Assembly: GCA_031292555.1 (NCBI GenBank)
Contig: JARLGV010000066.1
Span: 1 to 43,181 of the forward strand
Source: Fimbriimonas sp.
Lineage (GTDB): Bacteria > Armatimonadota > Fimbriimonadia > Fimbriimonadales > Fimbriimonadaceae
Reading direction: 5' to 3'
Length of the DNA stretch: 43,181 bases
A program made the position numbers and the translations under genes. Below are positions 20,859 through 23,966 of the stretch, piece by piece. Under the pieces are notes generated by a model that had not been told where the DNA came from, did no database searches, and worked only from the letters and a program-made list of their open reading frames with translations. Position 1 is the stretch's first letter, and each line of letters begins with the position of its first letter.

Positions 20859-20877
20859 GCACACCCATTTAGTGCTT
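20857..20877. terminator. Shared hairpin between convergent EamA and BlaR1-like genes
   Basis: AAGCAC (20857-20862) and GTGCTT (20872-20877) pair over a 9-nt loop. The structure includes the last bases of the EamA stop and the whole BlaR1-like stop. Short stem, no long T-run; termination function is inference. Confidence 0.35.
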
Positions 20878-22845
20878 CTTGACGATATTGTAAACCCCGC
20901 CTTCGATGAGAAAGCTCGCGTCGACTTGTCGAACGAGGTTCTCAAGGGCGATATCGAACCTCACATTTTGCAGTTCGAGGCTTACGTTGCCTTGAACCTC
21001 CGGTGCGATCGTATAACTGGAGTTGACGGCTCGGAAGATCCGCCTGATTGCTTCTCGAACGTCCACCTGATCCATGCGCACATGCATCCTCTCCGGCGGT
21101 CCCAACACGAAACTCCCTTCCGATACCCCCTCGGCGCCAGCGTCCTTCGTTATCAAGTAGACGCCACCTTCCGTCCGAAAATTGGCATTGACCTGTTTGA
21201 CGATGTTCCGCACTGCAGTGTCAAGCGTCACTCCATTCACATCAACCGTAACCCAGCCCTGAACGTTAGGGTCGACGATACACGAGAATTGGCTCGTCGT
21301 GAACAGCGCCTTGAGTGCCGCTCGCACATCCTCGGCGTTGCACTTGAAGCTAAAGAGCCGCTCATGGTTGGCAGGCGGAAGTGGTCGGCCAAGTCCTTGT
21401 ACCGACATCACCGGTACGCCGACACCAATGGCTCCTTGGCCACGTATCTCATAGATGCCGTCTACAACTCGATAGGTCGCGTGGATTTGGCCCGTCATAT
21501 TTCGCAGGGCCTGCTCGAAAGTGACGTTGTGGGCAAAGATTGTGATGTTGCCCAATACGTTCGGCGCCAACGAGAGCGATCGCCGAAAGCTACGGAATAG
21601 GAGTTTGAACGCCTCGTGCGCCGGCATGTTGTCGATCGACAAGTCAGCGGTTAGCGGCGATGGAGAACCTGGAATATCGGGAAGGCTCCAAAGCCTGGCC
21701 AACAGTTTTTTCCCACTTCGAATTTCCAGAACTCGCATGCCCGCTTCGGCGTTCTTGCGAGGGGAAGTCTTGCGAGCGTGGGCGTTGGACGCCCGCTTGC
21801 TTTGACCTACGATCGGCTTCTTGGCCTGATGATGGGGCCGATCGGTTTGCGCCAACCGATAGCCAGGCACCATCGCCAAACACCCGGCCGATAGAACGAA
21901 CGCCACGACGATCTTCGCCGGGTTCGGCTTTGCGTTGAAGTGAGTCATGTCCTTTATCCTTTGTTTCATGCTTGACGTGGATCCAGCCATTGAGATTCCG
22001 ATCGATGCCGAAAGCAAACTGGGTCGTGCGACGACAGTTGCCCTGACGAGCATTTCGGCGTACCGACGTGGTGTGACCCTAGAGAGCCGGATTGCCGCCT
22101 GGTCGGCGGCCGACTCCTGGGCTTCCCGATAGCAACGAGAGGCTATCCACACAAGTGGATGAAAGAAGTAGAGCGCCTGAGCGACAAGGAACAGGCCGCT
22201 CCACTCCAAATCGCGGTGGTGAACGTGCGCCATTTCATGCGCCAAGACTAGCAGCACATCATTGGAATCGCCCACCTCCTTTGGAAGCAGAATCGTTGGA
22301 TTCAGGTATCCCGTCACCACGGCAGTGGGAATTTCATCCGACTCCATGAGAAGTGGCATCCTGGCCCGCCCTATCGTTTTTGCGAGCCCGGCCAAGTTGG
22401 CAAGCAACGCCTCGTCGGATATGGGCCTCGCAGTCTTCAGGTCATTTCTGAATAAGCGTGCCCTCCTGAAAGCAGCGCCGGCAAACATCAGGGCGCCCAT
22501 CCAGTAAAGTGCTGACCAAGCGTCGATCCGGTTCTCCTTCGGCGTCGATTTCGACGCAGGGCGTACTTGCTGAATCACACTGCCTAGAATCGAAGGCCCG
22601 GCGACCGGGATTGCTTCGTTTGTTAAGTGACCCATGACCGGTTCAGGAGGGCTCGGAAGTAGCTTGAGCGTAATCGGCTCCAGGGGAAGTAGCCCAAGCA
22701 ACAGTTTCAGGAAGACCAGACGCCATAGCCAAAGTCGAACCTTCGGAGGCACGGCGGGAAACAGTCTCGTGGCAACGTACAAGACCAGGATGGCGATTCC
22801 GCCCTGTATGGACGACTGAGCAAGCGAGTCAAGATACATGCTCAT
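20869..22845 (-). CDS. BlaR1-like M56 membrane metallopeptidase with three STN-type repeats
   Basis: A 658-residue inner-membrane sensor/peptidase. Transmembrane helices lie near 14-30, 37-57, 109-126, 216-232 and 311-328. The zinc motif H-E-M-A-H is at 203-207, and 'EAQESAADQAA' near 231 gives the downstream acidic residue of M56/BlaR1 enzymes. After the last helix, instead of a penicillin-binding domain, three related roughly 65-residue units (about 401-470, 497-567, 588-656) each end in a pattern like 'P-x-V-x-G-x-[VI]-[TS]' ... 'GGVYxI'. They resemble secretin/TonB short N-terminal (STN) domains. It overlaps the BlaI-type repressor by 17 nt. Known pairs cleave the repressor when the sensor binds a ligand; that mechanism here is inference, and the ligand is unknown. 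Confidence 0.88.
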   Translation of the reverse strand: MSMYLDSLAQSSIQGGIAILVLYVATRLFPAVPPKVRLWLWRLVFLKLLLGLLPLEPITLKLLPSPPEPVMGHLTNEAIPVAGPSILGSVIQQVRPASKSTPKENRIDAWSALYWMGALMFAGAAFRRARLFRNDLKTARPISDEALLANLAGLAKTIGRARMPLLMESDEIPTAVVTGYLNPTILLPKEVGDSNDVLLVLAHEMAHVHHRDLEWSGLFLVAQALYFFHPLVWIASRCYREAQESAADQAAIRLSRVTPRRYAEMLVRATVVARPSLLSASIGISMAGSTSSMKQRIKDMTHFNAKPNPAKIVVAFVLSAGCLAMVPGYRLAQTDRPHHQAKKPIVGQSKRASNAHARKTSPRKNAEAGMRVLEIRSGKKLLARLWSLPDIPGSPSPLTADLSIDNMPAHEAFKLLFRSFRRSLSLAPNVLGNITIFAHNVTFEQALRNMTGQIHATYRVVDGIYEIRGQGAIGVGVPVMSVQGLGRPLPPANHERLFSFKCNAEDVRAALKALFTTSQFSCIVDPNVQGWVTVDVNGVTLDTAVRNIVKQVNANFRTEGGVYLITKDAGAEGVSEGSFVLGPPERMHVRMDQVDVREAIRRIFRAVNSSYTIAPEVQGNVSLELQNVRFDIALENLVRQVDASFLIEGGVYNIVKKH

Positions 22846-23218
22846 CCCCTTCGAGTTTTTCCAGGAGCTTCCGCAATTCGCCTAACTGGGCGTCGTCGGC
22901 ATCCACCTTCTGCGTCAGATAGGCGACCAACGGAGTCACCGATCCGCCGAGAACCGTTTCGACGAAGTCATCGACAAGCCCCTCAAACAGACGGACCTTC
23001 CCTCCCGCCGGAAAGTACTTATAGACCCCATCCAACTTCTCCCGTCTGAGGAACCCCTTCTTTCGGAGCCGCTCCATTGTGTTGAGCGCGGTCGTTCGAG
23101 TCTGCCCTTTCGTCGCGGACAGGTGCTCGGCCACTGTACTCACCGCAACGCCCGGTCGATCGGCGACAAAGCGCAGCACTTCGACTTCTGCTCTCCCTAC
23201 CCCGTGTTTTTTGTCCAT
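22829..23218 (-). CDS. BlaI/MecI/CopY-family transcriptional repressor
   Basis: A 129-residue winged-helix repressor. About residues 8-75 form the DNA-binding domain ('VSTVAEHLSATKGQTRTTAL' covers the recognition helix, and 'LRREKLDGVYKYFPA' the wing), followed by a helical dimerisation tail. Family members repress the adjacent blaR1-type operon and are inactivated by proteolysis. It overlaps the downstream BlaR1-like gene by 17 nt. Two dyads lie 14-56 nt upstream of ATG 23218, consistent with autoregulation. Confidence 0.92.
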   Translation of the reverse strand: MDKKHGVGRAEVEVLRFVADRPGVAVSTVAEHLSATKGQTRTTALNTMERLRKKGFLRREKLDGVYKYFPAGGKVRLFEGLVDDFVETVLGGSVTPLVAYLTQKVDADDAQLGELRKLLEKLEGDEHVS

Positions 23219-23231
23219 CGCAATCCAGATT

Positions 23232-23274
23232 GACGACAGTCGTCGTCTGCTGTAGATTGTACGACAATTGTCGT
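23232..23274 (-). promoter_or_regulatory. Probable BlaI-type operator pair
   Basis: ACGACAATTGTCGT (23261-23274) is a perfect 14-bp palindrome, and GACGACAGTCGTC (23232-23244) is a 13-bp dyad around one central base. They share the half-site GACGACA/TGTCGTC. A TACAAT -10-like hexamer on the minus strand sits beside the first, so binding would block transcription of the repressor-peptidase unit. The half-site differs from the TACA/TGTA of classic BlaI sites. Confidence 0.6.
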
Positions 23275-23330: not shown

Positions 23331-23966
23331 CTAGCCGTCCACGTTCTTAAGTTCAGGTAGAGCAAGGTAGATGACGAGCAAAAAGCACGTGCCAATCCCG
23401 ACCAGGGGATAGACGAAAGTGAGTCCGAACGCCGCGACATATAAGAAGAACACGATGCGAATCTTGCGCGACTGTCGGTCGAGCCATACCTCGTCTTCGA
23501 CGATCCCGAGCCTGCCATTCAGGCGTGTAATGTGTTTCCAAACCAAATACACCATTCCGACGATCATGGCGAACGAACCGGTGAACAGTGCGGCCGCGTA
23601 ACGGGCTTGAGGATGCACGATGAACAGGGCCAGAAGCGATGTCGGGAACGGGACAAGCGTCACCGGAAGCAGGAGCATCCCATTCAAGAACATCAATGCG
23701 TGATCCGCCTTCTGAACCCGTTCAAACATCATATGATGCTTGATCCACACGAGCAGGATCGTTACGAAACTGATAACGTAGGTCAGGTATTCGGGCCACT
23801 GCAAAGCAAGTTGCTCGAGCAAATAGCCCGAATGATTCCCCTCGGGAACCGATGGCACTTTGATCGTCAAGACGAGAAGCGTAAGAGCGATCGCGAAGAC
23901 GTTGTCGCTAAACGACTCGATCCTGGACGTTTCCTTCCCCGATTGCCCGTCGGCCGCCGACCTCAC
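23331..23966 (-). CDS. TMEM175-family (DUF1211) potassium channel-like protein
   Basis: A 211-residue membrane protein with six predicted helices. The family signature R-x3-FSD at the start of helix 1 is present: 'RIESFSDNVFAIALTLLVLT'. Bacterial TMEM175 proteins form tetrameric potassium channels with an isoleucine/leucine-lined gate; the hydrophobic helix 1 fits. GTG 23966 follows the aldo-keto reductase stop by 20 nt, with TAAACT (minus strand, plus positions 23973-23978) 6 nt upstream. It could therefore have its own leaderless transcript as well as read-through from the upstream gene. Confidence 0.9.
   Translation of the reverse strand: MRSAADGQSGKETSRIESFSDNVFAIALTLLVLTIKVPSVPEGNHSGYLLEQLALQWPEYLTYVISFVTILLVWIKHHMMFERVQKADHALMFLNGMLLLPVTLVPFPTSLLALFIVHPQARYAAALFTGSFAMIVGMVYLVWKHITRLNGRLGIVEDEVWLDRQSRKIRIVFFLYVAAFGLTFVYPLVGIGTCFLLVIYLALPELKNVDG

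Follow-up and report, generated by a model that had tools for sequence, protein, structure and literature searches.

The BlaR1/MecR1–BlaI/MecI systems of Staphylococcus and Bacillus licheniformis combine an M56 peptidase, with four membrane helices and an HExxH motif, with an adjacent BlaI-family repressor, palindromic operators and a penicillin-binding domain as sensor. BlaI/MecI operators are of the TACA/TGTA type, and receptors of the BlaR1 type are known mainly as antibiotic sensors. BlaR1 itself adopts an Nout/Cout topology, cuts BlaI directly and has its sensor shed by signal peptidase (PMC9834060).

The pair described here lies in a window of 43,181 nucleotides, the whole stretch of DNA analysed, from Fimbriimonas sp. 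(Armatimonadota; assembly GCA_031292555.1, contig JARLGV010000066.1, positions 1–43,181), to which all coordinates refer. It has in common with the known systems the peptidase with its four helices and HExxH motif, the adjacent repressor, palindromic operators, presumed cleavage of the repressor and a fold match to BlaR1 (8exq), but carries three N0/STN units in place of the penicillin-binding domain, has no linked resistance gene in sight and uses an operator, CGACAWWTGTCG, that differs from the TACA/TGTA type. Each tail unit resembles the N0 domains of secretins (PilQ, HofQ, GspD; PF07660, PF21305) in fold and sequence; unlike secretins, however, the protein has no secretin core, N1 domain or barrel, and its three N0 units stand in tandem on a peptidase. 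In TonB-dependent transducers and FecR/PupR, an STN-type periplasmic domain likewise serves transmembrane signalling (fold matches 2a02 and 6ovk), although in TonB transducers the STN domain belongs to an outer-membrane receptor and the output is a sigma factor, whereas the Fimbriimonas protein would be an inner-membrane peptidase acting through BlaI. Nothing in the literature searched joins BlaR1/M56 proteins with secretin or STN domains, and UniProt or InterPro may list the architecture without comment.

Domain composition of the M56 protein

The gene at 20869..22845 (minus strand) encodes a 658-residue zinc peptidase of the M56 (BlaR1) type with a three-unit STN/N0 tail, as judged from the open reading frame, Pfam and an AlphaFold2 model. 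The Peptidase_M56 domain occupies residues 8–298 (21952..22824, minus strand; PF05569, E 9.2e-37, 127 bits against a cut-off of 31 in the Pfam scan, and E 2.8e-37 when scored in the genome-wide search). Its zinc motif, HEMAH, at residues 203–207 (22225..22239, minus strand; sequence and alignment of homologues), is where the first-pass annotation, made from the sequence alone, had placed it in calling this half an ordinary M56 peptidase, and the family match agrees with that description. H203, E204, H207, E244 and D248 are invariant across 15 aligned M56 homologues. The NCBIfam BlaR1 model scored 81 bits on the protein against a cut-off of 400, and the Pfam scan returned no match to a transpeptidase or penicillin-binding protein family or to the secretin core (PF00263).

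In the full-length AlphaFold2 model the peptidase was predicted at high confidence, with four long hydrophobic helices (residues 2–28, 34–51, 109–137 and 309–324) and with tail units 2 and 3 folded; its best matches in the PDB were S. aureus BlaR1 (8exq, E 2.4e-6), followed by the N0 domain of PilQ (4ar0). The fourth membrane helix, at residues ~309–327 (21865..21921, minus strand; model helix 309–324, hydropathy peak of 1.91 near residue 319), leads into the tail, which starts near residue 329 as a basic linker, long and modelled at low confidence, that runs to about residue 397. Beyond the linker are unit 1 at residues 398–469 (21439..21654; local profile, AlphaFold2 and unit alignment), unit 2 at 496–567 (21145..21360; Pfam, local profile and AlphaFold2), which holds the best Pfam STN stretch, and unit 3 at 585–656 (20878..21093), whose identity to the genome's own free-standing STN proteins reaches 61%, all three being encoded on the minus strand.

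Scanned alone, the 260-residue tail matched STN (PF07660) above the cut-off (33.1 bits, E 4.8e-8, cut-off 28.4), but in a scan of the whole protein the same family reached only 23.4 bits, so automatic annotation could miss the STN tail. GspD_N0 fell just under its cut-off on the tail (26.4 versus 27 bits), and the NCBIfam PilQ model matched it with E 3.5e-14. The three units are homologous to one another, with 34–44% identity over the aligned part and scores 19–25 standard deviations above shuffled sequences, and a local STN profile whose training set included these same units scored 87, 97 and 98 bits on units 1, 2 and 3. The first-pass annotation had described three homologous units of roughly 65 residues; their number and homology stand, but each is about 72 residues long. 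Modelled alone with AlphaFold2, the tail formed three confident beta-alpha-beta-beta-alpha-beta-beta folds of the N0/STN kind (~90 pLDDT), whose best PDB matches were PilQ N0 (4ar0, E 1.2e-4), LspD (7pmp) and PilQ (4av2), with GspD N0 (4jtm, TM 0.74) close behind; matches to the STN domains of FecA, PupA and FpvA and to the PupR anti-sigma domain (2a02, 6ovk) were weaker. The proposal that an STN-type tail replaces a penicillin-binding sensor is thus borne out, and the likeness to secretins or TonB receptors can be narrowed: the units are closer to secretin N0 than to the STN domains of TonB receptors, and their nearest relatives are products of a pilM...pilQ operon of the order.

An outward-facing tail is inferred from homology to BlaR1 and from the type of domain it carries. 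The charges of the short loops fit Nout/Cout; with 15 K/R among 60 residues, the linker beyond helix 4 is basic, and the positive-inside rule would put it in the cytoplasm, a mild argument against an outward tail.

Repressor, operators and neighbouring genes

A BlaI-type repressor of 129 residues is encoded at 22829..23218 (minus strand; PF03965, E 7e-19, 68.7 bits against a cut-off of 22.6 in the Pfam scan) and shares 17 bases with the peptidase gene, in agreement with the earlier claim of a repressor–peptidase pair. Upstream lie two candidate operators, supported by palindromy and conservation: ACGACGACTGTCGT on the minus strand at 23233..23246, and the perfect palindrome ACGACAATTGTCGT at 23261..23274. 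Between them is a -10-like box, TACAAT (23256..23261, minus strand; a consensus match only). The consensus of the twin operators at this promoter is CGACAWWTGTCG, and twin copies of this type, 25–41 bases apart, were present upstream of the matching blaI gene in all seven related promoters that were checked (G019, G005, two loci of G025, G008, G002 and G010). The architecture of the pair and its operators are well supported.

The exact operator motif occurs in its own genome only at this blaI-M56 promoter, which leaves the pair itself as the sole target found. In the Fimbriimonas genome and the related genomes searched, no copy of the operator was seen at genes for the pilus, secretins or free STN proteins, and in the regions upstream of free STN genes the best matches were no better than background. 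A relaxed search of the Fimbriimonas genome gave 52 matches against 29 with a reversed-pattern control, those inspected being mostly intragenic; single sites inspected in other genomes lay inside genes or at a terminator-like palindrome, in about the number expected by chance. On this evidence no regulon was recognised beyond the blaI-M56 operon.

The same genome holds thirteen M56 genes, most of them accompanied by a BlaI gene. An inverted repeat lies just upstream in 11 of the 12 blaI promoters called, and the repeats differ from pair to pair, including CTGTAG, TGACTA, CGACAA, GCCAGA, ATACGAA, ACCTACA, GTTGGA, TGCGAA and GTTAAAA. For example, the second M56-STN pair, on contig C87, has the twin operator TGACTA-N6-TAGTCA, which was found nowhere else in the genome even when one mismatch was allowed. 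Because the operators are pair-specific, the BlaI/M56 pairs look like insulated, self-controlling circuits, and the sequences suggest that they act as a set of mutually insulated switches, which is what such distinct operators would supply.

Downstream, the peptidase gene meets a convergent gene for an EamA transporter, and most related blaI-M56 loci are likewise two-gene operons followed by a convergent gene. On the upstream side of the blaI promoter, at 23331–23966 and on the same strand as the pair, is a homologue of TMEM175-type potassium channels.

Free-standing STN proteins

When the whole protein was searched against 61 relatives, most of the order's genomes proved to hold short reading frames that match residues ~589–657, with identities of at most 61%. 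The products are exported proteins in which a signal peptide precedes a single STN unit, followed by the beginning of an N1-like strand and then by a Gly-rich tail. Within the local unit set, free STN proteins are the nearest relatives of units 1, 2 and 3 (43%, 49% and 57% identity) and match all three better than any other M56 unit does. A tree of single STN units, built on 72 columns only, left the branching and the direction and number of captures unsettled. Those relatives of the free STN protein that have a named source in the contig collection were from Armatimonadetes.

In two genomes of different genera (G008 and G021), the free STN gene follows pilM, two further genes and a pilP-like gene, and precedes the secretin gene and shikimate kinase (aroK), so that a small exported STN and Gly-rich protein is encoded within a pilM...pilQ-aroK operon (L141:7972-8703 and L147:6376-7032). 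PilM and the secretin were clearly identified, and the pilP-like gene by a weak match (E 1.3e-4, below the cut-off); the two middle genes, at the places of pilN and pilO, gave no family match. This pil-operon protein is up to 61% identical to unit 3 and would share its exported setting, but lacks the peptidase. A second STN-bearing gene comes next after the STN gene at 11 sampled loci, and wherever this second gene was fully read it encodes a secretin. The pil operon of the Fimbriimonas genome itself is without a free STN gene; five free copies lie elsewhere, three in tandem on contig C87, one on C4 and one, with three units, on C106.

STN and secretin-type tails in related M56 proteins

For a survey of related proteins, 85 genomes of the same family were searched using just the peptidase half, so that the tail played no part, the results were pooled with earlier loci, and STN units were called with the local STN profile. 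M56 tails with one or two STN units were found in nine other genomes of the family: two units in proteins of G025, G008 and G061, and one in G002, G010, G004, G005, G019 and G036, as well as at the second locus of the Fimbriimonas genome, with a weak one in G008; three units were seen in the protein described here. No STN tail was seen in ~28 M56 proteins taken from other families in the phylum. The whole protein found no match in the contig collection, and a plasmid search returned only ordinary M56/BlaR1/MecR1 matches over the peptidase.

Other secretin pieces also occur in M56 tails. Secretin_N was found in two genomes, the Fimbriimonas genome (three stretches, E 1.2e-30) and G004 (E 4.7e-24), and a secretin-core motif was found in G008 (34.3 bits against a cut-off of 27.5), with further ones below that cut-off in the Fimbriimonas genome (23.3 bits) and G071 (21.5 bits). 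A tree of 37 M56 domains showed the label for secretin-type tails to be clustered, requiring 6 changes versus 12 when shuffled, and the branches starred in that tree force at least 5 changes for such tails, so that different secretin pieces seem to have been joined to the M56 peptidase more than once.

Proposed switch and alternative readings

That the blaI-M56 pair has the architecture of a switch is almost certain, and its topology, the cleavage of BlaI and activation through the tail are inferred from BlaR1. At rest, BlaI would occupy the twin operators (23233–23246 and 23261–23274) and keep its own operon low. The M56 protein would lie in the inner membrane, with the zinc site in the cytoplasm and the three N0/STN units in the periplasm, where the units would bind a usual N0 partner, be it the pilP-like protein, an N0 ring or a free N0 protein. 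An altered contact with this partner would activate the peptidase, which would cut BlaI and allow the operon to rise. By analogy with BlaR1, the cleavage of BlaI is probable. Being built of pilus-type N0 domains, the units should bind what N0 domains bind, and because they are related to the N0 domain of PilQ, the secretin of the type IV pilus, and most of all to the small exported N0 protein whose gene lies beside pilQ in this order, the state of the pilus or secretin would be the most likely signal.

Even so, sensing of a pilus/secretin machine by the tail is a tentative proposal, for which likelihood falls a little short of even. The absence of the operator at pilus, secretin and free STN genes counts against it, as do the Gly-rich, STN-less tails of the two nearest M56 homologues (~40% identity; G019 and G005 loci). 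Tails of M56 proteins across the phylum are also extremely varied, including propellers, DUF881, DUF3466, LTXXQ and ankyrin, and tail identity may therefore be only loosely tied to function. Of the interpretation first offered for this gene, the M56/BlaI pair and the replacement of the penicillin-binding sensor by STN/N0 units have held up, but the sensing of an envelope or secretion state has not gained support from operators at pilus, secretin or STN genes. Taken whole, an autoregulated switch of the BlaI/BlaR1 type with a pilus/secretin N0 sensor that responds to pilus or secretin assembly is possible, and is the reading that we tentatively prefer.

The tail might instead bind another exported ligand, for instance a small molecule, a glycan or, as the STN domains of TonB receptors do, an outer-membrane transporter, its link to secretins being one of ancestry only. 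This is unlikely, though it draws on the N0/STN fold being common to the signalling domains of TonB receptors and their binding partner, the PupR anti-sigma domain (6ovk, 2a02), and on the existence of M56 tails of many unrelated kinds; the tail sequence, however, is closest to pilus-operon N0 proteins, and the Secretin_N and secretin-core tails of sister M56 proteins would be left unexplained. TonB-type STN signalling in particular was rejected, as only one TonB plug protein was found in the genome and a genome-wide Pfam STN search listed no frame of TonB-receptor length.

Frequent changes of tail on the peptidase tree, at least 5 for the secretin type alone, and the Gly-rich or featureless tails of close relatives would fit a tail that serves as a generic and exchangeable anchor, or as a means of dimerisation, in the periplasm, the real signal being sensed by the membrane helices or by the loop that joins helices 2 and 3. 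The well-conserved, folded units of several M56 proteins, and a recurrent reuse of secretin parts that is unlike a random sample, make this quite improbable. About equally doubtful is a tail that serves as the output, such that de-repression yields more M56 protein and the STN units, possibly shed after helix 4, act in the periplasm as free STN proteins do. Free STN proteins carry the same domain, no target was found besides the operon itself, most related loci are two-gene operons that end at a convergent gene, and the BlaR1 sensor is shed by signal peptidase (PMC9834060); moreover, helix 4 ends in V-x-A-Q/R in 14 of 87 M56 paralogues compared with 17 of 912 background blocks, some entries being repeated. 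Yet helix 4 of the protein itself ends in YRLAQTDR, a poor signal-peptidase site, and an effector alone would have no need of the peptidase. A beta-lactam receptor whose sensor domain has diverged strongly, which the BlaI/BlaR1 pairing might recall, is contradicted by the missing transpeptidase and penicillin-binding domains and by the clear N0 fold of the model, and is extremely improbable.

If the sensors are indeed pilus/secretin domains, as we tentatively prefer, the M56 membrane peptidase module would have been redirected to monitor the envelope machinery of the cell itself, and the pilP-like protein, PilQ N0 and the free N0 protein become candidate ligands. A wider proposal, more speculative and on balance doubtful, is that the BlaI/M56 receptors of this lineage repeatedly took up secretin pieces (N0, Secretin_N and the core motif) as baits that report assembly of the type IV pilus or of other secretin machines, each receptor forming a one-step proteolytic envelope checkpoint with a private operator.

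Other tails and STN-bearing proteins

M56 proteins with DUF3738 tails are found in acidobacteria; such tails were considered as relatives of the STN tail and set aside, the Pfam scans having given no DUF3738 match. Several further tails were characterised by eye. Carboxypeptidase-like and prepilin-like pieces are among the tails across the phylum, three tails (L004, L181 and L179) resemble the C-terminal part of DUF1559 prepilin-like proteins, with a weak, below-cut-off DUF1559 match in L179 only, and the tail at L008:256-1476 has a long coiled coil that ends in an HlyD/TolC-like hairpin motif, and no Pfam match. The Gly-rich tails of the G019 and G005 proteins resemble the Gly-rich half of free STN proteins, a likeness seen by eye and compositional in kind. 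In G008, one M56 tail (L131 / L055:1755-3458) carries two copies of a secretin signature, VPFLSEIPIVGHAF and VPVLSDIPIIGRLF, in a Pro-rich stretch.

Besides its PilQ-type proteins, the Fimbriimonas genome encodes four long secretin-core proteins, in frames of 826–880 residues on contigs C36, C50, C85 and C137. Tandem STN units also occur in free-standing proteins in which a peptidase or secretin part is not apparent, with six units in G002 (L063:4062-5654) and three on contig C106 of the Fimbriimonas genome (L047:4536-5564). Just after the M56-STN gene of G036, a frame at L070:5108-5911 encodes a product without a Pfam match that looks like a detached M56 tail, its first residues resembling, by eye, the helix-4 region of M56 proteins.
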